Assembly: GCA_905182815.1 (NCBI GenBank)
Contig: CAJJCX010000004.1
Span: forward strand, 310,001-374,000
Direction of reading: 5' to 3'
DNA: 64,000 bases
Source of the DNA: an uncultured Candidatus Thioglobus sp.
Lineage (GTDB): Bacteria; Pseudomonadota; Gammaproteobacteria; PS1; Pseudothioglobaceae
In this document: piece by piece, positions 41,580 to 62,706 of the stretch
Layout of the letters: the number at the start of each line of letters is the position of its first letter
How positions within the stretch are numbered: position 1 is the stretch's first letter
Position numbers and translations under genes: made by a program
Notes under the pieces: model-generated
The model's database searches: none
What the model was told of the DNA's origin: nothing
Seen by the model: only the letters and a program-made list of their open reading frames with translations

Positions 41580-42722
41580 ATGAAGATATTAATTGCACCT
41601 GATTCTTTTAAAGAAACCTTAACAGCTTCTGATGCAGCAAATGCAATTGAGGAAGGTTTTTTAGGTATTTTTCCAGATGCTAATATTTTAAAATTACCGA
41701 TTGCTGATGGTGGAGAGGGAACAGTTGATGTCTTAGTTACTGCAACTCAAGGCAAGTATTTTTCAACGAAAGTGTCAGGTCCTCTAGGAGAATATATCAA
41801 TGCCAAGTGGGGTATGCTCGGCAATTCAAAAACAGCAGTAATCGAAATTGCTGAAGCTTGTGGCTTGCACCTAGTTCCACTTAAAAAAAGAAATCCAATG
41901 AATACCTCTAGTTTTGGAGTTGGTGAGCTCATACTTGCTGCAATTGATGAAGGTGCTGAGCATATTATTATTGGTTTAGGAGGAAGTGCAACAAATGATG
42001 GAGGAATGGGTTTTTTAGAGGCAATTGGAATCCAATTTTTAGATTCTTTTGGTAAGGAACTCACTGGAGGTGTAGAAAGTTTAAATACACTTTCAGATAT
42101 TAATATTACTTCTATCGACTCACGCCTCAAAGGAGTCAGTTTTGAGATTGCATGCGATGTGGACAATCCTCTCATTGGACAGCAAGGCGCATCAGTTATT
42201 TTTGGATCTCAAAAAGGTGCTGATGAAAAGATGATTAATCAATTAGATAATCTATTGAGTCATTACTCCAGAATCGCTTCCAGTAAATTAAATAATAACC
42301 TCTCAATGCAGCCAGGGGCAGGTTCAGCAGGCGGCATAGGTTATGGTTTTCTTGCTTTTTTAAAGGCGGATCAAAAAAGTGGGGTACAAATTATTCTTGA
42401 AAAACTTAATTTTGAGCAACATCTATCAACTACAGATCTTGTAATAACAGGCGAAGGTAGGTTTGATAGTCAAAGTCTTAGAGGTAAAGCTCCAATGGGA
42501 GTAATTGATTATGCAAGAAAGCATAAATGCAGTATCTTTGTCATTGCAGGTAGTGCAGAGAATGATGAAATACTGGAAAATAAATATGATATCGACAAGG
42601 TATTTAGTATTATTTCTAATGACCTATCATTTGAACAGTCAATTGCAAATCCCAATGATAGTCTAATGGCTACTGCAAAAAAAGCAGCCCAGCACTATAA
42701 AAAATATTATTTAAATCTTTAA
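41580..42722 (+). CDS. Glycerate kinase (GlxK/GarK type)
   Basis: The 380-residue protein matches type II bacterial glycerate kinase: IAPDSFKETLTASDAANAIE at the start, PIADGGEGTVDVL, IGLGGSATNDGGMG and VITGEGRFDSQSL. The family phosphorylates D-glycerate to 2-phosphoglycerate (GarK/GlxK). Its stop overlaps that of the convergent D-2-hydroxyacid dehydrogenase by 4 bp. Because that enzyme could make glycerate from hydroxypyruvate, the two may act in sequence (inference). Confidence 0.9.
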   Translation: MKILIAPDSFKETLTASDAANAIEEGFLGIFPDANILKLPIADGGEGTVDVLVTATQGKYFSTKVSGPLGEYINAKWGMLGNSKTAVIEIAEACGLHLVPLKKRNPMNTSSFGVGELILAAIDEGAEHIIIGLGGSATNDGGMGFLEAIGIQFLDSFGKELTGGVESLNTLSDINITSIDSRLKGVSFEIACDVDNPLIGQQGASVIFGSQKGADEKMINQLDNLLSHYSRIASSKLNNNLSMQPGAGSAGGIGYGFLAFLKADQKSGVQIILEKLNFEQHLSTTDLVITGEGRFDSQSLRGKAPMGVIDYARKHKCSIFVIAGSAENDEILENKYDIDKVFSIISNDLSFEQSIANPNDSLMATAKKAAQHYKKYYLNL

Positions 42723-43747
42723 TATCCTAGATCAGGGTTTATTAAATTATTTAATTTTTCATCAGCAATGTATCTTTGCATATTCATTAGAACGAGCTCA
42801 AGTGTTAGAGGAATATATGTATCACCATCATCAGCAGATATATGCGGCATAACCATTAAGTTCGGTGTGTCCCATAATATTGAATTTGAAGGGAGTGGCT
42901 CAGGATCAAAAACATCAATAATAGCAGCCTTGATGTGACCAGAATTTAAGTTCTCTACAAGAGCATCATAGTCCATTGTGGCAGCCCTTCCAACATTAAC
43001 AATACCTACTCCTGGCTTCATTAATGATTGACGCCTTTTATCTAATAAATTAAATGTTTCAGTTGTATTCGGTGTAGACATAAAAATGTAATCAGCTGCA
43101 GGGAGTACTTCATCTAATTTATCTACCTTAACCATTTGATCGACGCCTTCTAAAGGCATCCCATGACGACTTACCCCAATTACTTTCATGCCCAATAATT
43201 TGCATTTTTTTGCAGCAGCATGTCCTATATTGCCTGTACCTATAACCAGCAATGTCTTACCTAATATTGGAGATGAATAGAGAGATTCCCAATGCTTGTT
43301 TTGTTGATTTTGAATGATTTCAGGGATATGCGTATGCAGCATTAGCACACTCATTAGACCAAACTCCCCTGCTTTTGCTGAGTGCACGCCCCGATTATTA
43401 ACAACTGAAACGTGTTCTGGCACCCAGTCCATTGGACATAAATGTTCTACCCCTGCACCAATAATATGAATCCATCGAAGTTTAGGCGCAATTTCAGCAA
43501 GATTCTCAGTAGGAAAATCCCAGCACACAAGAACCTCAGCAGTCTTCATGGATTCATAAAAGTTCTCTAAATCCCAATCAAAAATTGGCTCAATTTTGTT
43601 TTTTAAATCAGGGTAGCTTTCAATTGCATTATCAAACCTTTCTTTGGTAATAGCAAAAACACTTTCCCCTTCAATAGTTGGTGGGAATGAATCAGGGTCA
43701 GCATGATTACTCTTAAAATGAACTCTTATTTTATTATCACTTGCCAT
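42719..43747 (-). CDS. D-2-hydroxyacid dehydrogenase (NAD(P)-dependent)
   Basis: A 342-residue member of the D-isomer 2-hydroxyacid dehydrogenase family. The Rossmann motif is VIGTGNIGHAAAKK. The catalytic trio is visible: Arg in NVGRAAT, Glu in VFDPEPLP and His in MPHISADD. Relatives reduce glyoxylate/hydroxypyruvate or interconvert D-lactate and pyruvate; the substrate cannot be told from sequence. It is the second gene after the reverse-strand Rieske oxygenase, with only 6 bp between, so the two are likely a unit. A role downstream of glyoxalase (D-lactate-like product) or upstream of glycerate kinase is possible. Confidence 0.85.
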   Translation of the reverse strand: MASDNKIRVHFKSNHADPDSFPPTIEGESVFAITKERFDNAIESYPDLKNKIEPIFDWDLENFYESMKTAEVLVCWDFPTENLAEIAPKLRWIHIIGAGVEHLCPMDWVPEHVSVVNNRGVHSAKAGEFGLMSVLMLHTHIPEIIQNQQNKHWESLYSSPILGKTLLVIGTGNIGHAAAKKCKLLGMKVIGVSRHGMPLEGVDQMVKVDKLDEVLPAADYIFMSTPNTTETFNLLDKRRQSLMKPGVGIVNVGRAATMDYDALVENLNSGHIKAAIIDVFDPEPLPSNSILWDTPNLMVMPHISADDGDTYIPLTLELVLMNMQRYIADEKLNNLINPDLGY

Positions 43748-43753
43748 AGGTAT

Positions 43754-45124
43754 TTATTTATTGGTATTTGAAGTTTCTCTTGATTGTATTTCTTTTAATT
43801 TTTTCGTAACTATTTTAACTCTCTCTTCTTCAACCTTTCCATCGACTTCAAATTGAATTTGAACGAATTCATGTGCAAGTTTACTTAAGAAGGAATTGTC
43901 TTCCAAATTACTCGCTGGAATATTAAGGACAGAATCACCTCCATAAGTTGGAACTGGCAATCCATTAATGCCACTTGCTAGATATGGTTTTTTGCCAGAG
44001 GCAACAGTTTTTATTTGCTCTCTAATTCTCTGACGCATCATTGCAACTCCTTGATCACTGGGTAATAAATTTTCATTTTTATGGATATTTATTGGACCCA
44101 TACCTTCGCATGCTTCTCGGTCTGCAGGAAATCTTTGACGTTCTTTGTAGGGGCGATCAAAAATTTCACCCTGTTCAATTAGTTCAGGACCCTCTGGAGT
44201 GTTAAATTCCTGTGGATCTCCTCTCTCCCCAAAATTAGCCCAGGCATAGCAGATAGTTGTTTCATCGTCGATTGGAACAACCCATCGTGTAAATGAACTT
44301 CTGCCATAGTGTATTTGCTTTGTTCCATCTGCAGCAAAAGCTGCACCTGCTTGAGTAAAGTTTGGCAAAACAACTTCGTTAATCCTAAACCAAATATTGT
44401 CACCAACTCTCCTGGTATTGCAGCCTAAAATCCAACTATCACGCTCAAAAAAATCAATCTGTCCAACTTCTCCAAAGCCTTCTGAAAACTGTTGTCGACT
44501 CATATTTGAATGAAGGAAAGAGGTGTGAATTGGATCAACTATAGCATCCAAAACCTGAAGCCAGTTGCAATTGAAGGGTGCCTTATAGGGCACCATTTCC
44601 ATATCTTTAAAATTTAGGCTGTCATACATTGGGAATTCAGGTTTTTCATCAATTGGCCCAAGATAGGCAAAAATTAAACCTTTAAATTCATAAGTTGGAT
44701 AGGCGCCAAGTCGAACCCTTTGTTTAATAATGTCAGCTATATGTGCAGGCTGGCCAGGAACATCTAATAATGTTCCATCAATGCCAAAGTGCCATCCATG
44801 GTAGCAACATTGAATTCCTGTTTCTTGACAAATACCAAATTCAAGAGAAGCTTGCCTATGAGGGCATTGTTTATGAACCAATCCTAATTGATTGCTTTTG
44901 TCTCGAAATAGAACAAGTTCTTCACCCAGAATTTTTATTGATACAGGAAGATCATCGAGTTCAGAAGAGATAAAAACTGGCTGCCAGTATCTTCTAAGGT
45001 ATTCACCTGCTGGCGATCCAGGACCAATACGTGTAATTTCATCATCAACATCTTTTGAGTGGATTAATCCATGCCCTGAATATCCTTTCAATTCAACCTC
45101 GAAGTCACTTCCTTTAATGCCCAT
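43754..45124 (-). CDS. Rieske non-haem iron oxygenase alpha subunit (phthalate-dioxygenase-like)
   Basis: This 456-residue protein has a Rieske 2Fe-2S domain with Cys87-x-His89 and Cys106-x-x-His109 (CPHRQA and CCYHGWHF), then a catalytic domain with the non-haem iron motif DAIVDPIHTSFLH. The N-terminal GPGSPAGEYLRRYWQPV is typical of the phthalate 4,5-dioxygenase / O- and N-demethylase group that works without a beta subunit. Its substrate is unknown. The strong AGGAGAGG ribosome site and a 242-bp divergent promoter region lie upstream. No reductase gene is nearby, so electrons must come from elsewhere. Confidence 0.87.
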   Translation of the reverse strand: MGIKGSDFEVELKGYSGHGLIHSKDVDDEITRIGPGSPAGEYLRRYWQPVFISSELDDLPVSIKILGEELVLFRDKSNQLGLVHKQCPHRQASLEFGICQETGIQCCYHGWHFGIDGTLLDVPGQPAHIADIIKQRVRLGAYPTYEFKGLIFAYLGPIDEKPEFPMYDSLNFKDMEMVPYKAPFNCNWLQVLDAIVDPIHTSFLHSNMSRQQFSEGFGEVGQIDFFERDSWILGCNTRRVGDNIWFRINEVVLPNFTQAGAAFAADGTKQIHYGRSSFTRWVVPIDDETTICYAWANFGERGDPQEFNTPEGPELIEQGEIFDRPYKERQRFPADREACEGMGPINIHKNENLLPSDQGVAMMRQRIREQIKTVASGKKPYLASGINGLPVPTYGGDSVLNIPASNLEDNSFLSKLAHEFVQIQFEVDGKVEEERVKIVTKKLKEIQSRETSNTNK

Positions 45125-45366: not shown

Positions 45367-46458
45367 ATGTCATCTTTTTTTGAGAAAGGCAAGCTTAAGC
45401 ATGGACTGCCCTCATCTGCCTATACTAGTGCTGATTTTTTTCGCACTGAGTGCGATACCGTGTTTACCGATAATTGGGTTTTTGTAGGTTTTGCCCATGA
45501 GCTAAATGAGCCAGGGGATGCAAGACCAATTATGGTTGCTGGTCAGCCAGTAGTCTTAATTAAAAATAATGAAGGAAAAATTTCAGCTTTCCATAATGCA
45601 TGCTCTCATCGATGTTTGAAGTTAGTTGATGAGCCAATGAATGTTGGCAAGATGTTATCTTGCCCCTATCATGCATGGACGTACAGTCTTGATGGTGATC
45701 TTTGTGCTACGCCGTTCTTTGGTGGCAAAGAGCATCAGCCAGAAGGCTTTGAAATGTCAAATCATAATCTTAAATCAATAAAAATAGCTATTTGGCAAGA
45801 TTGGATTTTTATTAATTTAAGTGGCAATGCTGCCAATTTTGAGGATTATGCAGCTCCTCTTATTCAAAATTTTAGTGATATAGATTTTCAAAAAGTGAAG
45901 CCTGTAGCTACTTTGGATTTTGGTGAGATTTCTACGAACTGGAAATTTCTTATGGAAAATTTTATAGAGCCTTACCATGTTCAATTTGTCCATCGAACAA
46001 CAACAAATCAGCCTCTTGAGGATCATTACACAATTGTTGATGGCGTTTGCCTAGGAAGCGCTATTGATCTAGATGATGATGATAAGGTAAAGGGGAGTTT
46101 GTCTGTAAGTTCAAGATACTTAACTCTTTTTCCAAATTTTATAATTGGTCGTTATGCTCCGGATCAAATTGGAGTCTATTTGAATGTTCCAGTTGATGAA
46201 GGTCATACGCACCAAAAAAGGGTTATCTACACCACAGAAGGCGAGAGCGTTTCAATTAAAGAGGTTGATGAAATGAAAAAGCTATGGTGGGATGTCCACA
46301 AAGAAGATCATGCAATTTGTGAAAGGATGCAGCTTGGGAGAGCGTCTCCAGTTTCAAAAGATGGTGGTATGTTGTCACCTCACTGGGAAGATAGTGTTCG
46401 CGCTTTTCAAGAAATGATTGCAGAAGCCGTTACTAACCCACCAAAAAATAATACATAA
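45367..46458 (+). CDS. Rieske non-haem iron oxygenase alpha subunit (choline/betaine-monooxygenase-like)
   Basis: The 363-residue protein has the Rieske motif Cys79-x-His81 and Cys99-x-x-His102 (CSHRC, CPYHAWTYS) and a catalytic iron site with His204 and His209 in ENFIEPYHVQFVH. Size and layout resemble choline monooxygenase / glycine-betaine demethylase (GbcA) relatives, which oxidise N-methyl groups or aromatic rings. The sequence is only distantly like the reverse-strand Rieske protein, so the two are not a duplicate pair. It is first in an operon with gloA, a cupin, an Lrp gene and a GS-like ligase. No reductase (GbcB-like) is adjacent. Substrate unknown. Confidence 0.87.
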   Translation: MSSFFEKGKLKHGLPSSAYTSADFFRTECDTVFTDNWVFVGFAHELNEPGDARPIMVAGQPVVLIKNNEGKISAFHNACSHRCLKLVDEPMNVGKMLSCPYHAWTYSLDGDLCATPFFGGKEHQPEGFEMSNHNLKSIKIAIWQDWIFINLSGNAANFEDYAAPLIQNFSDIDFQKVKPVATLDFGEISTNWKFLMENFIEPYHVQFVHRTTTNQPLEDHYTIVDGVCLGSAIDLDDDDKVKGSLSVSSRYLTLFPNFIIGRYAPDQIGVYLNVPVDEGHTHQKRVIYTTEGESVSIKEVDEMKKLWWDVHKEDHAICERMQLGRASPVSKDGGMLSPHWEDSVRAFQEMIAEAVTNPPKNNT

Positions 46459-46469
46459 AGGAGAATTTA

Positions 46470-46892
46470 ATGACCGATACAAGTTTTAATAGTGACTTTA
46501 GATTAGCACATACGATGATGAGAGTTCTTGACTTAGAAAAGTCACTTCATTTTTATTGTGACATTTTAGGTATGCAAGTGCTAAGGCGAACTGATTACCC
46601 GGGGGGAAGATTTACAAATGCATTTGTAGGTTATGGTCCTGAAATTGAATTTCCTGCACTGGAGCTAACCCATAACTGGGATCAAGAAGAGCACTATGAC
46701 AAAGGTAATGGATGGGGGCACATTTGTATTGAAACGCCAGATGTATACAAAGCTGTTGAAGACCTAGAAGCTGGAGGTGCCAAAATCATTAGTCCAGCTA
46801 AACCTATGAATGCTGGAACTCGAATACTTGCATTTATTGAAGATCCAGATGGATATGTCGTAGAACTTAATGAAAAACTTAACTTAACTTAA
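46470..46892 (+). CDS. gloA: GloA, glyoxalase I (lactoylglutathione lyase)
   Basis: A 140-residue VOC-fold protein closely following GloA: HTMMRVLDLEKSLHFY, LGMQVLR, AFVGYGPE, ELTHNW, GWGHICI and FIEDPDGYVVELNE. The four metal ligands (His, Glu, His, Glu) are all in place. GloA isomerises the hemithioacetal of glutathione with methylglyoxal or another 2-oxoaldehyde. Its position 11 bp after a Rieske oxygenase suggests that a 2-oxoaldehyde is made in this pathway, though a dedicated VOC isomerase with another substrate cannot be ruled out. AAAGGAG site present. Confidence 0.85.
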   Translation: MTDTSFNSDFRLAHTMMRVLDLEKSLHFYCDILGMQVLRRTDYPGGRFTNAFVGYGPEIEFPALELTHNWDQEEHYDKGNGWGHICIETPDVYKAVEDLEAGGAKIISPAKPMNAGTRILAFIEDPDGYVVELNEKLNLT

Positions 46893-46904: not shown

Positions 46905-47303
46905 ATGAGTAATAAACCACAACTATATAAATTTGGTGACATTGAGCACCGTTTACACACTTTAGAGCCAGGACAAAGCTATATCAAGCCTTTTGTTACT
47001 AGTGCAGTTAGTGATACGATGTGCGGCGGTTTGAATTTTTTAAACCAAGTATCTGTGCCATGGGAGTTAACATGCGATGAGATTATTTATTGTATGGAGG
47101 GGACGTTTAGATTAACGTGTGATGGCGAGTCTTATAACTGCAATCCAGGTGATGTCCTTTATATCCCTAAAGATAACTCTATAGCTTATGAGTGTGATGA
47201 AAAATGCGTAATATTCTATGCTGCTTATCCTCATGACTGGAAGCAACAAGCAGGAATTACTTTTGTGCCTGGAATAGATCCAGAAGACATGCCTCAAAAC
47301 TAG
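46905..47303 (+). CDS. EutQ-like cupin protein
   Basis: This 132-residue single cupin has the layout of EutQ/ethanolamine-associated cupins: GLNFLNQVSVPWELTCDEIIYCMEG, then CNPGDVLYIPKDNSIAYE. The classic metal histidines of cupin motif 1 are replaced (Glu/Asp/Cys), so a metal-dependent enzymatic role is uncertain. EutQ is an acetate kinase-like protein, but many stand-alone homologues have no known function. No other ethanolamine genes are here. It sits between gloA and the Lrp gene, 12 and 7 bp away. Confidence 0.75.
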   Translation: MSNKPQLYKFGDIEHRLHTLEPGQSYIKPFVTSAVSDTMCGGLNFLNQVSVPWELTCDEIIYCMEGTFRLTCDGESYNCNPGDVLYIPKDNSIAYECDEKCVIFYAAYPHDWKQQAGITFVPGIDPEDMPQN

Positions 47304-47310
47304 GATTTAA

Positions 47311-47862
47311 ATGAGTAATTCAAGTAATCGTATAGTGCACCTAAGTCAATCTAATGATAGTAATGATAGCGATCAACTTCCGCGTGTTCCAACTAGGGAT
47401 ACGCTAAAAGATAAATTGAATCAACGAATCATTGATATGCTTGAGATTGATGGACGAAAGCCATTTAACGAAATTGCTAAGTCACTGGAAATCTCTGAAG
47501 GGACTGTTAGGAATCGTGTGAATCGCATGAAAGATGCAGGTGTCTTGCAAATCAAAGCATTGGTAGATCGCTCTGCTATAAATTATGCAACAGATTCGAT
47601 GCTTGGAATAAAAGTTGCTTCAACTTCTAGCCCTACTGAGGTTGCTAAACGTCTTCAAGATTGCAATGAAATAGTCTTTATTATCTGGGTCACAGGTCGA
47701 TATGATCTTTTAGTAGAAATTGCCTCTGAAGGAGATGAGACCCTTACTAGGTTTCTAGATGAACATTGTTTTAATAACGGTGATATAAAGGATGTTGAGG
47801 TAATGAAAGGCCTGGCAACATATAAAAATCAATTTTTATTAAAATCGCAAGAAAAATTATAA
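47311..47862 (+). CDS. Lrp/AsnC-family transcriptional regulator
   Basis: This 183-residue regulator has a Ser/Asn/Asp-rich N-terminal extension (about 30 residues), a winged helix DNA-binding domain (IIDMLEIDGRKPFNEIAKSL, then SEGTVRNRVNRMKDAG) and a C-terminal RAM ligand-binding domain (VASTSSPTEVAKRL...IIWVTGRYDLLVEI). Lrp/AsnC members often sense an amino acid or amine and control neighbouring genes. Here it is embedded in the oxygenase operon, so it is a plausible binder of the palindromes at 45274 and 49388 (inference). Confidence 0.9.
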   Translation: MSNSSNRIVHLSQSNDSNDSDQLPRVPTRDTLKDKLNQRIIDMLEIDGRKPFNEIAKSLEISEGTVRNRVNRMKDAGVLQIKALVDRSAINYATDSMLGIKVASTSSPTEVAKRLQDCNEIVFIIWVTGRYDLLVEIASEGDETLTRFLDEHCFNNGDIKDVEVMKGLATYKNQFLLKSQEKL

Positions 47863-47895: not shown

Positions 47896-49314
47896 ATGGC
47901 AAAGATTTATCACACAACAATGGCAGATGCCCTGCCATCAAAGAAACGTGTTGCAGAGGAAAAAGCTCGATTAGAAAAAGCAGGCGTAAAGTACATTCTG
48001 TCGTGTTGGATTGACATGCTTGGCCTTCCTAAAACAAAGCCAATTCCTATGAAGGAGTTTGAGGCATTGTGTGCAGGAAAGGGCCCTCAATTTGCGGTTC
48101 ATTCAGTTTCTTTTGTTCCTGAATTAGGGCCTAATGACTCAGATCAAATCCCTGTACCTGATTTAGATAGCTTGGTAATTTGTCCATGGGATAAGACGTG
48201 TGTATGGGTTTTTTCAGATTTATGGTGGGAAGGTAAGCCTTATAACTTGTGCCCTCGTCAAACTCTTAAAAGAGCAGTACAAAAAGCAGATGACGCTGGA
48301 TATAAAGCTTTTTGTGGTATTGAGCCAGAATTTATTGCGATGCGATGGGAAGATGGTCAGCCTGTTAAGGCTTTTGATGATGATCCATTACCAGGTGACG
48401 GCTTACGTCCTCGCAGACAAGCTTTTGGATACGATGTTGAGTATTCAATTGATTCAATGGAATTCCTCAAAGAATTAATTGATACTGTTAATGATTTAGG
48501 CTGGGATATGAAGGATGTGGTTTGTGAGGGCGCCTACTCACAGTTTGAGCTTGACTTCACTTATACAGATATTCTTCAGATGGCAGATCGATTAGTTTTC
48601 TTAAGGGTTCTTCTTAAAGAGGTTGCTAAAAAGTATGGGATGTTTATTACCTTTATGCCAAAGCCAACGATTGGTGATTGGAGGTCTGGAGCGCATATTA
48701 ATTTTAGTATGACGAGTAACTCGGATAACAAAAATGTTTTTGAAGGTAAGGATGGAAAATTCTCTGATACAGCTTATCATGTAGTTGGTGGATTGCTAAA
48801 GCATGCAACAGAAATTACTGCTATTGCTTGTTCAACGGTAAACTCATATAACGGTTTGGTTCCAATAGTTGGTGGATTTGAAGGAGGAGTCTATACATGG
48901 GCGCCGACAACAATGGCCTATGGAGATAATAATCGATCTTGCATGATTCGACTCCCTCAAAACCGGTTTTGTATCGAGAATCGTGCTGCTGACATGTGCA
49001 TGAATCCATACCTATCCTTAGCACTTACAACAGCTGCAGCTTTGGATGGAATTAAGAATAAGATTGATCCAGGTGATCCTTTAAATATAAACTTATATAC
49101 ATTAAGTCCTGAAGAAATGAAGGAAGCAAACATTAAATCTTTACCTCGTAATCTTTTAGAGGCAATTGAGGCTTTAAATGAGGATGATTTTGCAAGAGAA
49201 GTTTTAGGTGATTCAATGCTCCTTCAATTTTTCTCTTATAAGAAAGATGAGTGGGATCGATATCATCAGGCTGTTACAAACTGGGAAGTTGAGGAGTTTT
49301 TAAGGCTCTATTAA
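47896..49314 (+). CDS. Glutamine-synthetase-like ligase, atypical (possible gamma-glutamylamide or other amide ligase)
   Basis: A 472-residue member of the glutamine synthetase superfamily. Visible parts are GIEPEFI and EGAYSQFELDF (metal ligands), GAHINFSM (the GS HxH-like region), NRSCMIRLP (ATP site) and an ENRAADMCMNPY pattern like PuuA/IpuC-type ligases. Oddly, the usual NSYKR motif, whose Arg holds the substrate glutamate, reads NSYNG (Asn319-Gly320). So the acid substrate may not be glutamate, or it may be bound differently. Similar stand-alone ligases accompany Rieske enzymes in aniline (TdnQ/AtdA1) and isopropylamine (IpuC) pathways. It closes the plus-strand oxygenase operon and has an AAGGAG site. 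Confidence 0.8.
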   Translation: MAKIYHTTMADALPSKKRVAEEKARLEKAGVKYILSCWIDMLGLPKTKPIPMKEFEALCAGKGPQFAVHSVSFVPELGPNDSDQIPVPDLDSLVICPWDKTCVWVFSDLWWEGKPYNLCPRQTLKRAVQKADDAGYKAFCGIEPEFIAMRWEDGQPVKAFDDDPLPGDGLRPRRQAFGYDVEYSIDSMEFLKELIDTVNDLGWDMKDVVCEGAYSQFELDFTYTDILQMADRLVFLRVLLKEVAKKYGMFITFMPKPTIGDWRSGAHINFSMTSNSDNKNVFEGKDGKFSDTAYHVVGGLLKHATEITAIACSTVNSYNGLVPIVGGFEGGVYTWAPTTMAYGDNNRSCMIRLPQNRFCIENRAADMCMNPYLSLALTTAAALDGIKNKIDPGDPLNINLYTLSPEEMKEANIKSLPRNLLEAIEALNEDDFAREVLGDSMLLQFFSYKKDEWDRYHQAVTNWEVEEFLRLY

Positions 49315-49436: not shown

Positions 49437-50330
49437 ATGTGTGGAATTGTAGGACTTTTTATTAAAAATCAAGCTCTAGAGTCTCAATTAGGTGCGCTTG
49501 TAGCACCAATGCTCAGTGAGATGACTGAGAGAGGGCCAGATAGCGCAGGTATTGCCGTTTATCGTAATCCTCAAGAGAATGGCTGTAAGATTACTGTCCT
49601 TGCTCAGCACCAAGACTTTGATTGGGGTGCTTTAGAGGCTGCAATAAGTAATCATTTTTCTTTAAGAGATATTACAGTAACCCGCAATCATGCAGTTTTA
49701 AGTCTAGATTCTGAAATTGATGATGTTCAAGTTTGGATGAGAGATAACTGGAGTGATCTTAGTATTACAAGTGCAGGAACAAATATTGAGATCTTTAAAG
49801 GTAAAGGTAACCCAGCTGAGTTTATTGATCAGTTTGATATTAAAAGTATGACTGGCACTCACGCACTTGGTCATACCAGAATGGCAACAGAAAGTGCAAT
49901 TACAACAGAGCACTCCCACCCTTTCTCAACAGGCCAAGATTTATGTCTTGTGCATAATGGCTCTTTATCAAACCATAACAGATTACGTGAAACTTTACGA
50001 AAAAAAGGTGTTCATTTCAAAACCGATAATGATAGCGAAGTTGCTGCTGGATATTTGAGCTGGCGCTTAAGTGAGGGGGATGATCTAGATCAAGCCTTGA
50101 ATCATGCCATAGAGGATTTAGATGGATTCTATACCTTTGCAATTGGAACCAGGGATGGTTTTGCAGTTATGCGTGATCCAATTGGTTGTAAGCCAGCAAT
50201 TATGGCAGAAACTGATGATTGGGCTGCGATGTCTTCTGAATATCGTGCTATTGCAACTTTGCCAGGCGCTGAAAATGCGCGCATTTGGGAGCCTGAACCA
50301 ACTCAGATTTATAGCTGGAAAAGGAGTTAA
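49437..50330 (+). CDS. MgsA/GlxB-like class II glutamine amidotransferase subunit
   Basis: The 297-residue protein is a class II (Ntn) glutamine amidotransferase: Cys2 after Met removal (MCGIVGLF) is the nucleophile, with ERGPDSAG, GHTRMAT and LVHNGSLSNH as further site residues. As a stand-alone subunit with the two following genes it matches the three-part N-methylglutamate synthase MgsABC (or the GlxBCD family). In that enzyme it releases methylamine from gamma-glutamylmethylamide, or ammonia from glutamine. It starts the second operon, with its own promoter and palindrome, and mgsB follows by 2 bp. Confidence 0.82.
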   Translation: MCGIVGLFIKNQALESQLGALVAPMLSEMTERGPDSAGIAVYRNPQENGCKITVLAQHQDFDWGALEAAISNHFSLRDITVTRNHAVLSLDSEIDDVQVWMRDNWSDLSITSAGTNIEIFKGKGNPAEFIDQFDIKSMTGTHALGHTRMATESAITTEHSHPFSTGQDLCLVHNGSLSNHNRLRETLRKKGVHFKTDNDSEVAAGYLSWRLSEGDDLDQALNHAIEDLDGFYTFAIGTRDGFAVMRDPIGCKPAIMAETDDWAAMSSEYRAIATLPGAENARIWEPEPTQIYSWKRS

Positions 50331-50332
50331 TA

Positions 50333-51007
50333 ATGACTGAAATTAATTTAGAAAAAAGCACTATTAGAGAGCTTAATGAAGCATTGCAGGCAGGGTCTTC
50401 TGGTGATAAATTTTCTGTAAATAATACTGTTGGAAAGCATGCTCTTTCAGTTGGTCTTACAACAAAGGTAGATGTTGAAATTAATGGACATGTTGGCTAC
50501 TATTGCGCTGGTATGAATCAACAGGCCAATATAATAATTAATGGAAATGCTGGGCCAGGTTTAGCTGAAAATATGATGTCTGGTCAGGTACGTGTTACTG
50601 GAAATGCCTCTCAATATGCTGCTGCAACAGCACATGGTGGACTATTAGTTATTGAGGGAGATTCAAGTTCACGATGTGGAATTTCGATGAAAGGTGTAAA
50701 TATTGTTGTTGGCGGTAATATTGGACATATGAGTGCATTTATGGCGCAATCTGGATGCTTAGTCGTTTGTGGAGATGCTGGAGATGCTCTAGGTGATTCA
50801 ATTTATGAAGCCAAAATTTATGTTCGAGGTAAAGTCAAAAGCCTAGGTACAGATTGTATCGAAAAAGAGATGCGAGATGAGCATAAGAAAGAGCTTCAGC
50901 AATTACTAAGCCAATCAAAAATGAGTCATGGGGTTGAAGAATTTCGACGTTATGGTTCTGCGCGCAAATTATATAATTTTGACATTGACCAAGTCGATGA
51001 CTACTAA
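50333..51007 (+). CDS. MgsB/GlxC-like glutamate synthase alpha C-terminal (GXGXG) subunit
   Basis: This 224-residue protein is a beta-helix of the glutamate synthase C-terminal type, with repeated glycine-rich turns (VEINGHVGYYCAGMN, INGNAGPGLAENMMSG, VTGNASQYAAAT, VGGNIGHMS). In GltB this GXGXG domain is structural, linking the amidotransferase and synthase domains. As a separate chain it corresponds to MgsB (GlxC). It has no catalytic residues of its own. It sits between mgsA and mgsC with 2 and 12 bp spacers. Confidence 0.82.
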   Translation: MTEINLEKSTIRELNEALQAGSSGDKFSVNNTVGKHALSVGLTTKVDVEINGHVGYYCAGMNQQANIIINGNAGPGLAENMMSGQVRVTGNASQYAAATAHGGLLVIEGDSSSRCGISMKGVNIVVGGNIGHMSAFMAQSGCLVVCGDAGDALGDSIYEAKIYVRGKVKSLGTDCIEKEMRDEHKKELQQLLSQSKMSHGVEEFRRYGSARKLYNFDIDQVDDY

Positions 51008-51019
51008 GGAGATCAGATT

Positions 51020-52342
51020 ATGAGCAAAGATAATCCAACATTAATAGAGTCTGCAACTTTTCCTCGGCATGTGATTGCGGAAATTCAGCGTGCAGCTAAA
51101 ACAGGAATTTATGATATTCGTGGATTTGGTGCTAAAAGAGATATTCCTACATTTGACGATTTAGTATTTCTTGGTGCTTCAACTTCTCGCTATCCATTAG
51201 AGGGCTATAGAGAAAAATGCACAACTGAGGTCATTTTAGGTAATAGGTTTGCAAAAAATCCTATTCATTTAAAAACACCAATCACAATTGCAGGCATGAG
51301 CTTTGGCTCCCTTTCAGCTCAAGCCAAAGAATCGCTTGGAAGAGGCGCGACTATAGCAGGCACTAGCACAACTACAGGGGATGGCGGAATGACTCCAGAA
51401 GAAAGAGGGCATTCTAAAACTTTAGTTTACCAATACTTGCCTTCAAGATATGGGATGAATCCAGATGACTTAAGGAAGGCTGATGCAATCGAAATTGTTT
51501 TGGGTCAGGGTGCAAAACCGGGAGGCGGAGGCATGCTATTGGGGCAAAAAATTTCTCCTAGAGTAGCACAAATGCGAAACCTTCCAGAAGGAATAGATCA
51601 GAGATCTGCTTGTCGTCATCCAGATTGGACGGGTCCAGATGATCTTGAAATCAAGATACAGGAATTACGTGAAATAACAAACTGGGAAAAACCGATCTAT
51701 GTCAAAGTTGGAGCGACGCGAGTTTTTTATGATGTCACCCTTGCTGTAAAGGCAGGCGCTGACGTTGTTGTTGTTGATGGCATGCAAGGAGGAACTGCAG
51801 CAACACAAGATGTTTTCATTGAGCACGTTGGAATACCGACGCTTCCAGCAGTTCGAATGGCTGTTGAAGCTCTCCAAGAAATGGATATGCATCGTAAGGT
51901 ACAGCTGATCGTTTCTGGTGGTATTCGAAGTGGGGCAGATGTTGCAAAGGCCTTAGCTTTGGGTGCGGATGCAGTTTCAATAGGTACTGCTGCATTAATT
52001 GCTCTGGGCGACCAAAGCCCTGAATTTGATGATGAATATAAAGAGATAGGTTCAGCAGCAGGTTTTTGGGATGACTATCAGGCGGGAAATGATCCAGCTG
52101 GCATTACGACTCAAGACCCTGAGCTTGCAAAGAGATTAGATCCAATTCTAGGTGGCCGCAGACTTGCGAATTATATAAATGTTCTTACGCTTGAATTGCA
52201 AACATTGGCCCGGGCATGCGGTAAGAGTCATGTGCATAATTTAGAGCCAGAGGATATGGTAGCATTAACTATGGAGGCAGCTGCGATGGCTGGCGTTCCC
52301 CTAGCTGGTACTAATTGGATTCCAGGTAAGGGCGGAATATAA
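51020..52342 (+). CDS. MgsC/GlxD-like FMN-dependent glutamate synthase domain
   Basis: The 440-residue protein is the FMN- and iron-sulfur-type synthase domain of glutamate synthase: ITIAGMSFGSLSAQAKESLG, GDGGMTPEERGHS, GAKPGGGGMLLG and VDGMQGGTAATQD, then SGGIRSGADVAKALALGADAVSIG. In N-methylglutamate synthase it condenses the amine with 2-oxoglutarate and reduces the imine. In the GlxBCD interpretation it would give glutamate. It follows mgsB by 12 bp with a GGAGAT site. Confidence 0.83.
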   Translation: MSKDNPTLIESATFPRHVIAEIQRAAKTGIYDIRGFGAKRDIPTFDDLVFLGASTSRYPLEGYREKCTTEVILGNRFAKNPIHLKTPITIAGMSFGSLSAQAKESLGRGATIAGTSTTTGDGGMTPEERGHSKTLVYQYLPSRYGMNPDDLRKADAIEIVLGQGAKPGGGGMLLGQKISPRVAQMRNLPEGIDQRSACRHPDWTGPDDLEIKIQELREITNWEKPIYVKVGATRVFYDVTLAVKAGADVVVVDGMQGGTAATQDVFIEHVGIPTLPAVRMAVEALQEMDMHRKVQLIVSGGIRSGADVAKALALGADAVSIGTAALIALGDQSPEFDDEYKEIGSAAGFWDDYQAGNDPAGITTQDPELAKRLDPILGGRRLANYINVLTLELQTLARACGKSHVHNLEPEDMVALTMEAAAMAGVPLAGTNWIPGKGGI

Positions 52343-52385
52343 TTACTAATTTAATAAAAATAATAACGAATAAATAGGAGAAATT

Positions 52386-53699
52386 ATGGCCACTAAACTT
52401 AGTAAAGTAGCTGCAGATAAAGGTATTGAATATTTTCTTATTAGCTTTGTAGATCTTTTTGGAAGTTTGCGTTCTAAGTTGGTTCCTGCAAGGGCCATTG
52501 ATGGAATGCAAAAAGATGGAGCGGGTTTTGCAGGATTTGCAGCCTGGTTAGATATGACGCCTGCACATCCCGATATGTTTGCTATTCCAGATCCTGATAG
52601 TCTTATCCAGTTGCCTTGGAAGCCAGAAATTGCTTGGTTAGCCTCAGATTTATGGATGGATGGTAAGCCTGTTGAGGCTTCTCCGCGAGTTGCATTAAAG
52701 AAGCAATTGGCAGAGGCTGAAAAGCAGGGTTTTAGAATGAAAACAGGTGTTGAGTGTGAATATCATCTCATCAATGAAGATGGAACTGATATTGCTGATG
52801 AGAAAGATACTCAAAGTAAACCTTGTTATGATCAGCAAGCCTTAATGCGCCAATATCCAGTTATTAAGCAAATTTGTGACAGCATGATTGAGTTAGGTTG
52901 GGGTCCATATCAAAATGATCACGAAGATGCTAATGGTCAATTTGAAATGAACTGGGATTTTGATGATGCTCTAAAAACTGCTGATCGCCAAGTATTTTTT
53001 AAATTTATGGTGAAATCAATCGCCGAGCTTCATGGCATGCGCGCAACATTTATGCCAAAACCTTTTAGTCATCTTACGGGTAATGGCTGCCACTCTCATG
53101 TCTCAATATGGAATCTAGATGGTTCTCAAAATTTATTTAATGGTGAAAATGATAGCCGAGGTTTAGGATTGTCACCTCTTGCGTATCAGTTTTTAGGTGG
53201 GATTATGCATAGCGCAGACCGCTTAACTGCCATCTTTAACCCAACTGTAAATAGTTATAAACGTATTAATGCTCCAAGAACAGTTTCTGGTGCAACGTGG
53301 TCTCCTAGCTCAATCACTTATGGTGGAAATAATCGTACTCATATGATTCGAGTTCCAGACTCAGGTCGTTTTGAATTACGATTAATGGATGGCGCAGCAA
53401 ATGCTTATTTAATGCAGGCAGCAATACTTGCTTGCGGTCTTGATGGCATTGCTGGCAACCGTGACCCAGGGGATCCACTTGATATAAATATGTATGAGCT
53501 TGGAAAAGACATCGAGGGCTATAAGCAACTGCCGCGTAATTTACTTGATGCGCTTAGATTACTTGAAGATTCAGATGTTCTTAGAGAAAGACTTGGAGAC
53601 AGCATAATTGATGCTTACATAAAATTAAAGCATACAGAGTGGAGTGGTTATGCCTCCCATCTGACTCAATGGGAGAGGGATAATACTTTAGATTGTTAG
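52386..53699 (+). CDS. GmaS/GlnT-type glutamine-synthetase-like ligase
   Basis: A 437-residue GS-superfamily protein, close in length to gamma-glutamylmethylamide synthetase GmaS and to GlnT. Conserved residues are GVECEYH, DANGQFEMNW, GNGCHSHVSIW, NSYKR (Lys292-Arg293), GNNRTHMIRVP and GRFELRLMDGAANAY. The intact NSYKR distinguishes it from the upstream ligase. Directly after mgsABC it would make gamma-glutamylmethylamide from glutamate and methylamine, feeding N-methylglutamate synthase; if the three partners are GlxBCD-like, it could be GlnT. The third component, N-methylglutamate dehydrogenase, is not in this window. A clear AGGAGAAA site lies in the 43-bp gap. Confidence 0.82.
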   Translation: MATKLSKVAADKGIEYFLISFVDLFGSLRSKLVPARAIDGMQKDGAGFAGFAAWLDMTPAHPDMFAIPDPDSLIQLPWKPEIAWLASDLWMDGKPVEASPRVALKKQLAEAEKQGFRMKTGVECEYHLINEDGTDIADEKDTQSKPCYDQQALMRQYPVIKQICDSMIELGWGPYQNDHEDANGQFEMNWDFDDALKTADRQVFFKFMVKSIAELHGMRATFMPKPFSHLTGNGCHSHVSIWNLDGSQNLFNGENDSRGLGLSPLAYQFLGGIMHSADRLTAIFNPTVNSYKRINAPRTVSGATWSPSSITYGGNNRTHMIRVPDSGRFELRLMDGAANAYLMQAAILACGLDGIAGNRDPGDPLDINMYELGKDIEGYKQLPRNLLDALRLLEDSDVLRERLGDSIIDAYIKLKHTEWSGYASHLTQWERDNTLDC

Positions 53700-53733: not shown

Positions 53734-53744
53734 GAAACTTTGTG

Positions 53745-54755
53745 ATGGATTATGAAAAGTTTGAGCTAGGTGATGTTTCTCTTTTATCAGGAGAGGAGTT
53801 AAATTCAGCCTTTTTAATTTACAAAACTTATGGAAAGCTGAATAAAGGTAAAGATAATGTTGTTGTTATGCCTACTTTTTACACTGGCTCACATCAAAGA
53901 AATGAGGGCTTTTTTGGTGAAGGTAGGGCAATTGATCCGGCAAAACATTTTATTGTTTCAATTAACTTATTTGGAAACGGACTCTCCTCTTCACCGAGTA
54001 ATTCAAAATCGCCTCAAGATGGCCCAAGATTCCCGCGTATTTCTCTTTGGGATAATATTGCTTGTCAGTACAAGCTATTAAAAGAGCATTTAGGTGTCGA
54101 GAAAATTGCGCTAGTTACTGGCTGGTCAATGGCAGGTTGTCAGGCTTATCAATGGGCTGCACAGTACCCTGATTTTGTTAAAGCAATCTTGCCTTTTTGT
54201 GCTTCAGCTAAAACATCCCCTCATAATCATGTATTCCTGGAAGGGGTAAAGGCGGCACTTTGTGCGGACCAAAATTGGAATAATGGTGATTATTCTTCTC
54301 CTCCAGTTGCTGGCCTTAAGGCATTTGCAAGAGTTTACGCAGGTTGGGCATTTTCACAAACTTTTTATCGTAACTCTCTATATAAAGAGATTGGATACGA
54401 CTCCTTAGAAGATTTACTTATCGATTGGGAGGAAGATCATTCTAAGAATTGGGATGCCAATAATCTCCTTTGTAAGCTTGATACTTGGCAGACTAGTGAT
54501 ATCAGTGTTGGCCCAATATATAACGGAAACATAGAGATGGCGTTAAATGCTATTAAGGCCAAAACTATCTTGATGCCCTGTATGCATGATCTTTACTTCC
54601 CACCTGAAGATAATGAAATTGAAGCAGGCTATATAAATGGTGCTGATTTTCGACCATTTAATTCTCCATGGGGACACTGTGCAGCAAACCCTGGAAATGA
54701 TCCTGACTTCACAGCTGAACTTGAGCGTGCCATTAATGAATTACTCGAAGAATAA
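53745..54755 (+). CDS. MetX-like alpha/beta hydrolase (homoserine acetyltransferase family)
   Basis: The 336-residue protein is of the MetX (homoserine O-acetyltransferase) type: YKTYGKLN and FYTGSHQRNEGFFGEG at the N-terminus, a nucleophile Ser128 in GWSMAGCQAYQ, Asp in MHDLYFPP and His in PWGHCAAN. The typical MetX nucleophile loop is GGSMGGMQ; here GWSMAGCQ departs from it, so the acyl acceptor may not be homoserine. I chose the ATG at 53745 over the GTG at 53742. It is 45 bp after gmaS and 8 bp before csaA. The link to amine metabolism is unknown. Confidence 0.78.
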   Translation: MDYEKFELGDVSLLSGEELNSAFLIYKTYGKLNKGKDNVVVMPTFYTGSHQRNEGFFGEGRAIDPAKHFIVSINLFGNGLSSSPSNSKSPQDGPRFPRISLWDNIACQYKLLKEHLGVEKIALVTGWSMAGCQAYQWAAQYPDFVKAILPFCASAKTSPHNHVFLEGVKAALCADQNWNNGDYSSPPVAGLKAFARVYAGWAFSQTFYRNSLYKEIGYDSLEDLLIDWEEDHSKNWDANNLLCKLDTWQTSDISVGPIYNGNIEMALNAIKAKTILMPCMHDLYFPPEDNEIEAGYINGADFRPFNSPWGHCAANPGNDPDFTAELERAINELLEE

Positions 54756-55372: not shown

Positions 55373-56683
55373 ATGAAGAAAAATATAAAAATCTTGGCCG
55401 GTAGTGCGATTCTTGCTGTTGCAAGTTCTGCTGCTGTTCAAGCTGGCGAGTTAACAGTCGCTACAGTGAATAATGGTCATATGATCACTATGCAAAGTCT
55501 AACAGGACACTTTGAAAAAGATAATCCAGGAATTAAAGTTAACTGGGTGACTTTAGATGAGGGTACGTTGCGTCAACGCGTAACAACAGACATTGCTACT
55601 AAAGGTGGTCAGTTTGATGTTATGACAATTGGTATGTATGAAGCTCCAATGTGGGGTGCAAAAGGTTGGTTACATTCTTTAGAGTTTGGCTCTAGTTATG
55701 ATGTAGACGATCTTCTACCTGCAATGCGAAATGGATTATCAGCTAATGGTAACTTATATGCAGCACCATTTTATGGTGAGAGCTCTATGATTATGTATCG
55801 TAAGGACTTGTTAGATGCAGCTGGTATGAGTATGCCTGATAACCCTACTTGGGGTCACGTCCAAGACGCAGCAGCAGCAATGACTGACAAAGCTAATGGT
55901 GTTTATGGTATCTGTCTTCGTGGTAAGCCAGGTTGGGGTGACAATATGGCATTCTTAACTACAATGGCTAACTCGTTTGGTGCGAGATGGTTTGATGAAG
56001 AGTGGAAGCCTCAGCTTGATTCACCAGCTTGGAATCATGCAGTTAATTTCTATGTTGATTTATTAACTCATTATGGTCCTCCAGGATCATCAGGTAACAG
56101 CTTTAATGAGATCCTAGCTTTGATTAACGAAGGTAAGTGTGGTATGTGGATTGATGCAACTATTGCGGCTTCTTTTGTATCAGACCCAAGTCAATCTAAA
56201 GTTGCTGATGTAATTGCTTATGCACAAAGTCCAGTAGCTGTAACCCATCGTGGTGCTAACTGGTTATGGGCATGGGCTCTAGCTGTTCCAGCTGGAACAC
56301 AGCAATCTGATGATGCTCTTAAGTTTGTTGAGTGGGCTACTTCTAAAGAATACATTAATCTTGTAGGCGAAGAGAAGGGCTGGGGAAGTGTTCCTACAGG
56401 CACACGTTCAAGCACTTACCAAAATATGAAATTCCTAGCTGCAGCAAATTTTGCTGAAGCGGAAATGAAAGCTATTTTGTCGGCTGATCCTTCAAACAGT
56501 ACGCAAGAGCCAACACCATACCAAGGTGTTCAGTTTGCATCAATTCCTGAGTTTCAGGCTATTGGTACTGCTGTAGGCCAACAAATGAGTGCTGCTTTGG
56601 CAGGTACGATTTCTGTTGAAGATGCTCTTGCTGCATCGCAAAAAGCGGCAGAAAGAGAAATGATTAAGGCCGGTTACTACTAG
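55373..56683 (+). CDS. Periplasmic polyol-binding protein of an ABC transporter (SmoE-like)
   Basis: This 436-residue extracellular binding protein (family 1) has a signal peptide with a cleavage site after VQA (Ala24). The mature protein resembles sorbitol/mannitol-binding SmoE/MtlE: NNGHMITMQSLTGHF, GQFDVMTIGMYEAPMWG and GVYGICLRGKPGWGDNM. It captures polyol in the periplasm for the two permeases downstream. A strong hairpin terminator follows the stop, so this gene is probably transcribed at a higher level than the rest, as is common for binding proteins. A GGGAG site is present. Confidence 0.9.
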   Translation: MKKNIKILAGSAILAVASSAAVQAGELTVATVNNGHMITMQSLTGHFEKDNPGIKVNWVTLDEGTLRQRVTTDIATKGGQFDVMTIGMYEAPMWGAKGWLHSLEFGSSYDVDDLLPAMRNGLSANGNLYAAPFYGESSMIMYRKDLLDAAGMSMPDNPTWGHVQDAAAAMTDKANGVYGICLRGKPGWGDNMAFLTTMANSFGARWFDEEWKPQLDSPAWNHAVNFYVDLLTHYGPPGSSGNSFNEILALINEGKCGMWIDATIAASFVSDPSQSKVADVIAYAQSPVAVTHRGANWLWAWALAVPAGTQQSDDALKFVEWATSKEYINLVGEEKGWGSVPTGTRSSTYQNMKFLAAANFAEAEMKAILSADPSNSTQEPTPYQGVQFASIPEFQAIGTAVGQQMSAALAGTISVEDALAASQKAAEREMIKAGYY

Positions 56684-56700
56684 AGAGTAATAACCATTTA

Positions 56701-56739
56701 AACGGGTCAGTTTTGCTATAAAACTGGCCCGTTTTTTTT
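56701..56739 (+). terminator. Hairpin terminator/attenuator between binding protein and permeases
   Basis: Stem arms AACGGGTCAGTTTT (56701-56714) and AAAACTGGCCCGTT (56720-56733) pair over 14 bp with one G-U, around loop GCTAT, followed by eight T's (56732-56739). It is a textbook intrinsic terminator. Read-through would supply the lower-level permease transcript. Confidence 0.9.
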
Positions 56740-56762
56740 AATATCTACTGGGGTTTTTTTTG

Positions 56763-57623
56763 ATGAAGTTCAGCGTTTCAAAAGCATTACAAGCTCCAAG
56801 TGTCATTCTTCTTCTTCTGTGGATGATTGTCCCACTAAGCATGACAATATATTTTTCATTCATGCGTTACAACTTGCTTTATCCAGAGCGCTATGGCTTT
56901 AATGGGCTTTCGAATTACGATTTCTTTTTAACAGATCCAGCATTATTTAGCGCAGTCACAAACAGTATTACTTTGGTTGGAAGTATTATTGCAATATCAG
57001 TCATTTTAGGCCTGGGAATTGCTTTGTTATTACAAGAAACCTTTAAAGGCCGAGGGATTGTAAGGGTTTTACTAATATCTCCTTTTTTCATAATGCCGAC
57101 AGTCAATGCGTTGATTTGGAAGAACATGTTTATGAATCCGGTTTATGGCCTTTTTGCATTCGTCAGTGGAATTTTTGGCTGGCCAGTTGTTGACTTCTTA
57201 TCAGACTTTCCTTTATTGTCAATTATTATTATGTTGAGCTGGCAATGGACTCCATTTGCTTTACTTATTTTTATGACTTCACTCCAATCTATGGATACAG
57301 AGCAGGTTGAAGCTGCTGAACTGGAAGGTGCTGGCTTTTGGTCAAAGTTTCGTTATCTAACCTTGCCACATTTGGGCAGAGCTATTGGTGTTGTTGTAAT
57401 GATTCAGGCTATTTTTCATCTCTCAATTTTTGCAGAAATTTTTGTGACAACCGGTGGTGGACCCGGTTATGACAGTACAAATACAACTTTTTTAATTTTT
57501 ACTCAAGCACTTCTTCAATTTGATGTTGGCGTTGCTTCCGCAGGAGGCGTTTTTGCAATTGTGGTTGCTAACATTATTGCTTATTTCTTAATTAAGACAG
57601 TTGCTAAGGGAATGGCTAAATGA
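56763..57623 (+). CDS. Polyol ABC transporter permease (SmoF-like)
   Basis: The 286-residue inner-membrane protein has six helices and the family EAA loop EAAELEGAGFWSKFRYLTLPHL, which docks the ATPase. It matches the first permease of sorbitol/mannitol (SmoF/MtlF) transporters. I start at the ATG at 56763; the TTG at 56760 is in frame but lies next to a T-run. It is 79 bp after the binding protein, behind the terminator, and overlaps the second permease by 4 bp. Confidence 0.92.
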   Translation: MKFSVSKALQAPSVILLLLWMIVPLSMTIYFSFMRYNLLYPERYGFNGLSNYDFFLTDPALFSAVTNSITLVGSIIAISVILGLGIALLLQETFKGRGIVRVLLISPFFIMPTVNALIWKNMFMNPVYGLFAFVSGIFGWPVVDFLSDFPLLSIIIMLSWQWTPFALLIFMTSLQSMDTEQVEAAELEGAGFWSKFRYLTLPHLGRAIGVVVMIQAIFHLSIFAEIFVTTGGGPGYDSTNTTFLIFTQALLQFDVGVASAGGVFAIVVANIIAYFLIKTVAKGMAK

Positions 57624-58456
57624 ACATAAGTTATAGAAATATGAAAAAAATAAAGCACCAATCGAGGATATTGGCTTGCTGGACTTTAGCTATAATTTTC
57701 TTTTTTCCTATTTTTTGGATGGTTCTAACGAGTTTTAAAACTGAGCTTCAAGCAATCTCCATTCCACCACTTTTCATTTTTGAGCCAACTTTTGAAAATT
57801 TTTCAATTGTCCAGGAAAGAAGTGATTATTTTAAGTATGCCACTAACTCGCTAATTACTTCTTTTGGTGCAACAATTTTTGCGCTAATTATCGCTGTGCC
57901 TAGCGCATATTCAATGGCATTTTTCCCTGGAAAATATACGAAAGATATTTTACTTTGGATGCTATCTACCAAGATGCTTCCAGCTGTTGGTGTTCTTATG
58001 CCTATTTACTTACTAGCTGATGCAGCTGGCTTGCTAGATACCAAAACTGTTTTAATAATTATCTTTGCAATGATGAATTTACCAATTATTATGTGGCTAT
58101 TATTTTCATATTTTAAGGAAATACCAAGTGAAATTCTTGAGGCTAGTAGGATGGATGGGTGTAGCACATTTGATGAATTAAGACATATTGTATTACCTCT
58201 TTCTTGGGGTGGTGTTGCTTCAGCTGGTCTTCTAAGTATTGTTTTATGTTGGAATGAGGCATTTTGGGCAATTAATCTAACTGCTGGAGATGCTGGCACC
58301 TTGACAGCGTTGATTGCTTCATATTCAAGCCCAGAAGGATTATTTTGGGCAAAACTTTCTGCCGCTTCAACACTTGCATGTGCACCTATTATTGTATTTG
58401 GGTGGTTTTGTCAAAAACAGCTAGTTCAGGGCTTAACATTTGGAGCTGTGAAATGA
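57620..58456 (+). CDS. Polyol ABC transporter permease (SmoG-like)
   Basis: The second permease, 278 residues with six helices and an EAA loop EASRMDGCSTFDELRHIVLPL. It corresponds to SmoG/MtlG and pairs with the preceding gene to form the membrane channel. Its start is coupled to smoF by ATGA and its stop overlaps the SDR start by 4 bp. Length and motifs are normal. Confidence 0.92.
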   Translation: MNISYRNMKKIKHQSRILACWTLAIIFFFPIFWMVLTSFKTELQAISIPPLFIFEPTFENFSIVQERSDYFKYATNSLITSFGATIFALIIAVPSAYSMAFFPGKYTKDILLWMLSTKMLPAVGVLMPIYLLADAAGLLDTKTVLIIIFAMMNLPIIMWLLFSYFKEIPSEILEASRMDGCSTFDELRHIVLPLSWGGVASAGLLSIVLCWNEAFWAINLTAGDAGTLTALIASYSSPEGLFWAKLSAASTLACAPIIVFGWFCQKQLVQGLTFGAVK

Positions 58457-59241: not shown

Positions 59242-59249
59242 GGAAAAGT

Positions 59250-61572: not shown

Positions 61573-61604
61573 AATGTTATTAGGCGTATACGAGGAGAGT
61601 AATT

Positions 61605-62600: not shown

Positions 62601-62654
62601 TTTAACTAATTAAAACCATCTAGATTGTTTGTATAAAATTAGTTGACTTACTTG

Positions 62655-62684
62655 TTGCTATATTTAGTATTCAATTTTTATAAT
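62655..62684 (+). promoter_or_regulatory. Candidate promoter of the PfkB kinase gene
   Basis: TTGCTA (62655-62660), an 18-bp spacer and a perfect TATAAT (62679-62684) lie 22 bp before the ATG at 62707. A second possibility, TTGACT (62643) with TAGTAT at 16 bp, overlaps it. The kinase therefore probably has its own promoter. Confidence 0.55.
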
Positions 62685-62706
62685 GTAACCTTTAAATAAG
62701 TTTCTC

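Follow-up and report, generated by a model that had tools for sequence, protein, structure and literature searches.

Work on the glutamine synthetase (GS) superfamily has documented specialization at the amine end of the active site and has regarded the acid end as constant. In Salmonella GS, glutamate is contacted by E131, N264, G265, R321, and R359, with counterparts in PauA7 and GlnA4 (PMC6529630), while in RhGmaS methionine sulfoximine (MetSox) is contacted by Glu124, Glu179, Gly231, His235, Arg288, and Arg327 (PMC7948447). The glutamate site of NpaA1 is reported to be highly conserved (PMC11335346). Three groups of described enzymes are of relevance here: the type III GS proteins GmaS/GlnT (RhGmaS, 7CQL; MmGmaS, 9QUR); the aromatic-amine gamma-glutamyl synthetases NpaA1, TdnQ, AtdA1, and DcaQ, which keep the glutamate Arg and whose genes lie beside a Rieske oxygenase gene, followed by a class-I GATase; and the catabolic gamma-glutamyl polyamine or ethanolamine synthetases PuuA, PauA, and GlnA2 to GlnA4, in which the amine sites are changed and the glutamate contacts are conserved (PMC6529630).

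The window, the whole 64,000-nucleotide stretch of DNA analyzed here, belongs to a genome of 1.32 Mb in four contigs whose nearest relatives are SUP05/Thioglobus records. It encodes a GS-like ligase, designated GSX (Table 1), whose frame begins at an ATG (47896) with an AGGAG-type site on its 5' side and is open for 472 residues. GSX scores 308.2 bits against PF00120 (gathering score, 24) and is thus a member of the GS superfamily, and its AlphaFold2 model has the full GS fold (pTM, 0.87; TM scores of approximately 0.8 to 0.84 to GS and GmaS structures), with pLDDT values below 50 at residues 256 to 260 and 325 to 332, that is, in the acid-site loops. The original prediction had read NSYNG at residues 316 to 320, where the neighboring GmaS/GlnT-type ligase has an NSYKR motif ending at R293, and had noted that the metal/ATP motifs GIEPEF and NRSCMIRLP are kept; both motifs are present, and its coordinates, frame, and start were correct.

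Table 1. Features of the GSX locus in the window, with one feature from related plasmids. Counts refer to the fetched flanks of 83 ortholog loci and are lower bounds, because many contigs are short.
Feature	Position	Strand	Remarks
D-2-hydroxyacid dehydrogenase-like protein	42719..43747	-	40/83 loci
RieskeB, LigXa-like Rieske oxygenase	43754..45124	-	36/83 loci
RieskeA, GbcA-like Rieske oxygenase alpha subunit	45367..46458	+	52/83 loci
VOC/glyoxalase-I-like protein	46470..46892	+	40/83 loci
EutQ-like cupin	46905..47303	+	34/83 loci
Lrp/AsnC-family regulator	47311..47862	+	53/83 loci
GSX, GS-like ligase, 472 aa	47896..49314	+	ORF; Pfam PF00120, E 9e-92
E143-P-E145 (E129/E131)	48322..48330	+	Kept; metal and substrate
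WRSGAH, GSX residues 262-267	48679..48696	+	Arg263 at Gly265 (RhGmaS Gly231) position; His267 = His269
NSYNG, GSX residues 316-320	48841..48855	+	Gly320 at Salmonella GS Arg321/RhGmaS Arg288 position
R347 (R339), R352 (R344), E361 (E357), R363 (R359)	48934..48984	+	Kept
Three genes matching N-methylglutamate synthase set MgsA, MgsB, MgsC	49437..52342	+	Named from gene order and family
GmaS/GlnT-type ligase with NSYKR (Lys292-Arg293)	52386..53699	+	Internal control; TIGR03105, 675 bits
MetX-like alpha/beta hydrolase (PRK07581)	53742..54755	+	Ser-Asp-His triad intact; 70/83 loci; usual GSX partner
Tandem ureohydrolase genes directly 5' of GSX, Roseobacter plasmids	L095:9110-11064 and L096

One of the closest described systems is GmaS, the best PDB sequence match (approximately 34% identity), with which GSX shares the fold and the metal/ATP residues. 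The metal/ATP set E129, E131, E212, E220, H269, R339, R344, and E357 corresponds to E143, E145, E211, E218, H267, R347, R352, and E361 of GSX, and the Arg for the second carboxylate (R359 type) is kept as R363. The flap is also GmaS-like, with Trp335 at the position of GmaS Trp300; the loop is longer, with an invariant Glu329, and has an insertion (VGGFEGG) after the motif. As in GmaS, Ala takes the place of the ammonium Asp50', and QFAVHS stands where the FDGSS loop is expected. GSX is not a misannotated GmaS or GlnA, as both assignments are ruled out by the curated cutoffs together with the site residues. TIGR03105 (GlnT/GmaS), the best NCBIfam for GSX, gives 379.9 bits, below a cutoff of 469.6 that the neighboring ligase exceeds, and its site residues, GmaS Asp177 and Arg288 (PMC7948447), are absent (Val209 and Gly320). 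Scores against TIGR00653 (GlnA type I; 314.7 bits, cutoff 429.15, with Asp50' absent) and NF045547 (PuuA; 196.7 bits, cutoff 650) are likewise below the cutoffs.

Replacement of the GmaS amine base Asp177 by Val209, together with the Ala in the Asp50' loop, favors a reading in which GSX no longer joins an acid to an amine and has turned the GS fold to a kinase-like reaction, to phosphoamidate formation, or to regulation. A precedent would be phenylphosphoamidate formation from aniline by a GS-like enzyme. Formation of that product from aniline is reported in Desulfatiglans (PMC7500099). We nevertheless consider such a function unlikely for GSX, given that GSX has all of the ATP/metal residues and, in Arg363, the Arg for the second carboxylate, that the protein is strongly conserved, and that its gene is placed in an operon with catabolic genes.

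What distinguishes GSX is its acid site. In MAFFT and profile-profile (hhalign) alignments, which pair the NSYNG and NSYKR columns identically, the Salmonella contact set falls on GSX E145, W262, R263, G320, and R363, and two further GmaS contacts fall on E211 and H267. The E131 and R359 equivalents are therefore kept, but G265 has become R263 (Gly231 in GmaS) and R321 has become G320 (Arg288 in GmaS; codons AAC GGT for Asn-Gly at 48850-48855), so that GSX does not have the conserved set of glutamate contacts, the superfamily standard at the NSYNG site being NSY(K/R)R. Because the change of R321 to Gly is accompanied by a new Arg at the Gly265 position, it is probably a relocation of the arginine rather than a simple loss, leaving one Arg in the pocket at another place, and the pocket looks rebuilt rather than merely deprived of its Arg. 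The original prediction, that GSX lacks the glutamate-binding Arg, thus stood in recognizing an altered acid site at which glutamate is perhaps bound otherwise or replaced, but it missed the Arg gained at Gly265. It had also proposed that another Arg in the carboxylate position would count against it, and Arg263, at a glutamate/MetSox contact position, goes part of the way toward this. As position 264 (N264) is variable across the superfamily, Trp262 of GSX is weak evidence and not diagnostic; it was dropped as a mark of specificity, since a Rhodococcus protein has Trp262 too.

The swap is strictly conserved. Each of the 83 orthologous loci has both NS(Y/F)NG and WRSGAH (82 with NSYNG and 1 with NSFNG). 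Of these loci, 80 came from a genome scan (51 to 99% identity) and three are on Roseobacter plasmids (60 to 61%). One cultured bacterium with an ortholog is Leisingera thetidis (OKQ63_RS21530). The hosts are Gammaproteobacteria, Alphaproteobacteria, and SAR324, and the orthologs form one clade at 100/100 in the tree. Two genome samples (299 and 369 genomes) showed a gap: clear orthologs, with NSYNG, began at about 60% identity, and all other matches had NSYKR and at most about 39% identity. The gene is common in its genus, being present in 23 of the 29 Thioglobus-like genomes sampled, and is part of a conserved gene set in abundant marine bacteria. At locus L024, a single contig carries a pair of GSX-like matches (85% and 76%) that face opposite ways, a duplication or an assembly artifact. 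It is very improbable that the motif reflects an artifact of alignment or annotation, with the real Arg elsewhere in the loop or the sequence itself wrong. The VGGFEGG insertion could shift the alignment of the loop; however, the TVNSYxx block is gap-free in both MAFFT and hhalign, and 83 contigs agree. A sequence error behind NSYNG was rejected because every one of the loci carries the motif.

The two changes are also coupled. Five genomes together encode 38 GS paralogs with a length of at least 250 residues, and all were aligned. In 35 of them column 320 is Arg and residue 263 is G, A, S, or T; the remaining three have Gly320, and all three have Arg263, as opposed to none of the 35 Arg320 paralogs (Fisher P = 1e-4, a value that ignores relatedness). 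Of the Gly320 proteins, two are orthologs and one, L141 (L176:8382-9803, G582:C187), is a divergent gammaproteobacterial paralog with FRSGAH and NSYQG that shares the Arg263/Gly320 swap at 38 to 39% identity and has other neighbors than the GSX loci (a TPP enzyme and a class-V aminotransferase). A single clade of L141 and the orthologs was not rejected in a tree with the motif columns removed (p-AU = 0.127), and one or two origins of the swap both fit. In a panel of clear non-GSX proteins (GlnA, GmaS, GlnT, PuuA, DcaQ/TdnQ-like, IpuC-like, halophile, and Rhodococcus), from which two unalignable rows were left out, every member has Arg320 and either Gly or Ala at 263. L141 is the sole exception among the other GS-superfamily proteins placed in column 320. 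Even the Rhodococcus opacus protein (L097, R1CP_RS35690), which is among the nearest relatives of GSX (38%) and shares Trp262 and Asn269, keeps Gly at 263 and NSYRR and adjoins a gamma-glutamyl-GABA hydrolase gene.

GSX thus probably holds its acid in another way or takes another acid. With two glutamate contacts changed in concert, a single purified protein and a pair of point mutants would allow a direct test of whether a GS-type ligase can change its acid. That GSX acts on an acid other than glutamate (a different dicarboxylate, for instance, an oxo or hydroxy acid, or a carboxylate of the pathway), with the swapped Arg and W262 setting a new specificity, is a possibility to which we assign somewhat less than an even chance. 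Both altered columns contact the acid, hardly vary outside the clade, and are fixed without exception within it, although a relocated Arg would be equally compatible with glutamate. We find it just as plausible that GSX is a glutamate-dependent amine ligase in which the swap is a compensated rearrangement, R263 doing the work of R321, so that only the amine is new. This would agree with the one Arg that stays in the pocket, with the coupling of the change, with the kept E131, E212, and R359 equivalents, and with the standard site in the closest relatives of GSX. On the other hand, the site is unchanged in the other sampled families, whose amines range from ammonia to aromatic amines.

The gene neighborhood bears on the same question. 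Like NpaA1, TdnQ, AtdA1, and DcaQ (30% identity to DcaQ), GSX has a Rieske oxygenase gene beside it, and Rieske-linked members of the superfamily use glutamate (PMC11335346), which favors L-glutamate as the acid. Unlike those systems, GSX lacks both the conserved glutamate site (R263/G320) and the class-I GATase: a DcaQ-type class-I GATase was not found in 82 of the 83 ortholog loci, the sole match being L036:1355-1804 (32% identity to the DcaQ partner), and this speaks against L-glutamate. GSX is likewise comparable to PuuA (25% identity) and its relatives as a catabolic GS-like ligase, but not in their conserved glutamate contacts. The partner of GSX is instead a hydrolase of a different type, consistent with an acid other than glutamate. 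This MetX-like enzyme has a Ser-Asp-His triad that is conserved across loci. Of the 52 non-SUP05 loci having its gene, 47 have it 3' of GSX in the same orientation (median gap, 42 bp). In SUP05-like loci the MgsA, MgsB, MgsC, and GmaS-type genes lie between GSX and the hydrolase gene (49437-53699 in the window), with GmaS alone in L019-L022 and L082; MgsABC is found mostly at SUP05/Thioglobus-like loci and in SAR324 L027. The hydrolase is absent from L039, L054, L069, L071, L083, and L087, all with ample flank. A tie between the swap and the hydrolase was not supported by L141, which has the swap with no MetX-like hydrolase alongside. A conserved transporter was dropped as a substrate clue: only the Roseobacter plasmids have the SsuA-like binding protein, and the gammaproteobacterial loci have another type. 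Text searches of the literature found no paper on the GSX gene set.

Our preferred reading, which we hold with roughly even confidence from the residues and gene order, is that GSX, its acid pocket rebuilt, is catalytically active as a carboxylate-amine ligase that depends on ATP and metal and works in a catabolic module for a nitrogen compound. With the NSYKR-loop Arg, the normal holder of the glutamate alpha-carboxylate, gone, Arg263 at the Gly265 position would most likely take over the far end of the acid, a role that we infer. The reactive carboxylate would still be activated as an acyl-phosphate by the kept metal and Arg339/344/359 machinery, and the amine would then attack the acyl-phosphate to give an amide, probably an intermediate of the module. 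The Rieske oxygenase or oxygenases would act on the compound of the pathway. Cleavage of the amide would probably fall to the MetX-like serine hydrolase encoded nearby, a role filled by class-I GATase hydrolases in other gamma-glutamylation pathways. A new acid specificity of GSX is possible. More tentatively, the clade may consist of ligases that use a non-glutamate acid via the relocated Arg and serve as the entry or conjugation enzyme of a Rieske-dependent catabolic pathway for a marine nitrogen compound, possibly N-methylated or guanidino, in SUP05/Thioglobus, SAR324, sponge-symbiont, and Roseobacter bacteria.

Leads to the substrate come from a minority of GSX loci and only suggest that the pathway compound is N-methylated or guanidino. 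In addition to the tandem ureohydrolase genes (Table 1), the Roseobacter plasmids of M382 and Alisedimentitalea have a dimethylargininase-like gene and a gene for 5-guanidino-2-oxopentanoate decarboxylase. One member of the M382 ureohydrolase pair is without the standard DAHxD metal motif, which suggests that the pair forms a heteromer. Two tandem ureohydrolase genes also lie beside the GSX ortholog at L051:3585-7230 and L054:3587-7252, with a HypB-type nickel chaperone gene in L051 and a CobW/HypB-family gene in L054. The layout resembles that of the metformin/dimethylguanidine hydrolase operons, which combine HypAB with tandem ureohydrolases and are nickel dependent (PMC11399263). L046 and L062 have guanidino-oxopentanoate-decarboxylase-family genes, several gammaproteobacterial loci have a GABA transaminase gene, and other loci have carnitine-type or methylated-amine genes. 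Homarine catabolism is a further, tentative lead, as its product N-methylglutamate would fit the MgsABC/GmaS neighbors. Neither the window stretch nor seven related loci yielded a guanidine riboswitch.

Elsewhere in the window genome, another GS-like paralog (G000:C1:178270-179340; L005, L006) lies near sarcosine-oxidase-like genes at C1:184439-199616 that could be an N-methylglutamate dehydrogenase set. A further GS-like gene (G000:C4:474910-475919; L004, L007) spans two reading frames, has an internal TAG, and is a possible pseudogene or assembly error. At 55373-63630, the window holds a separate cluster of genes for a sugar-type ABC transporter, an SDR, an AraC regulator, a mannitol-dehydrogenase-like protein, and a PfkB kinase.
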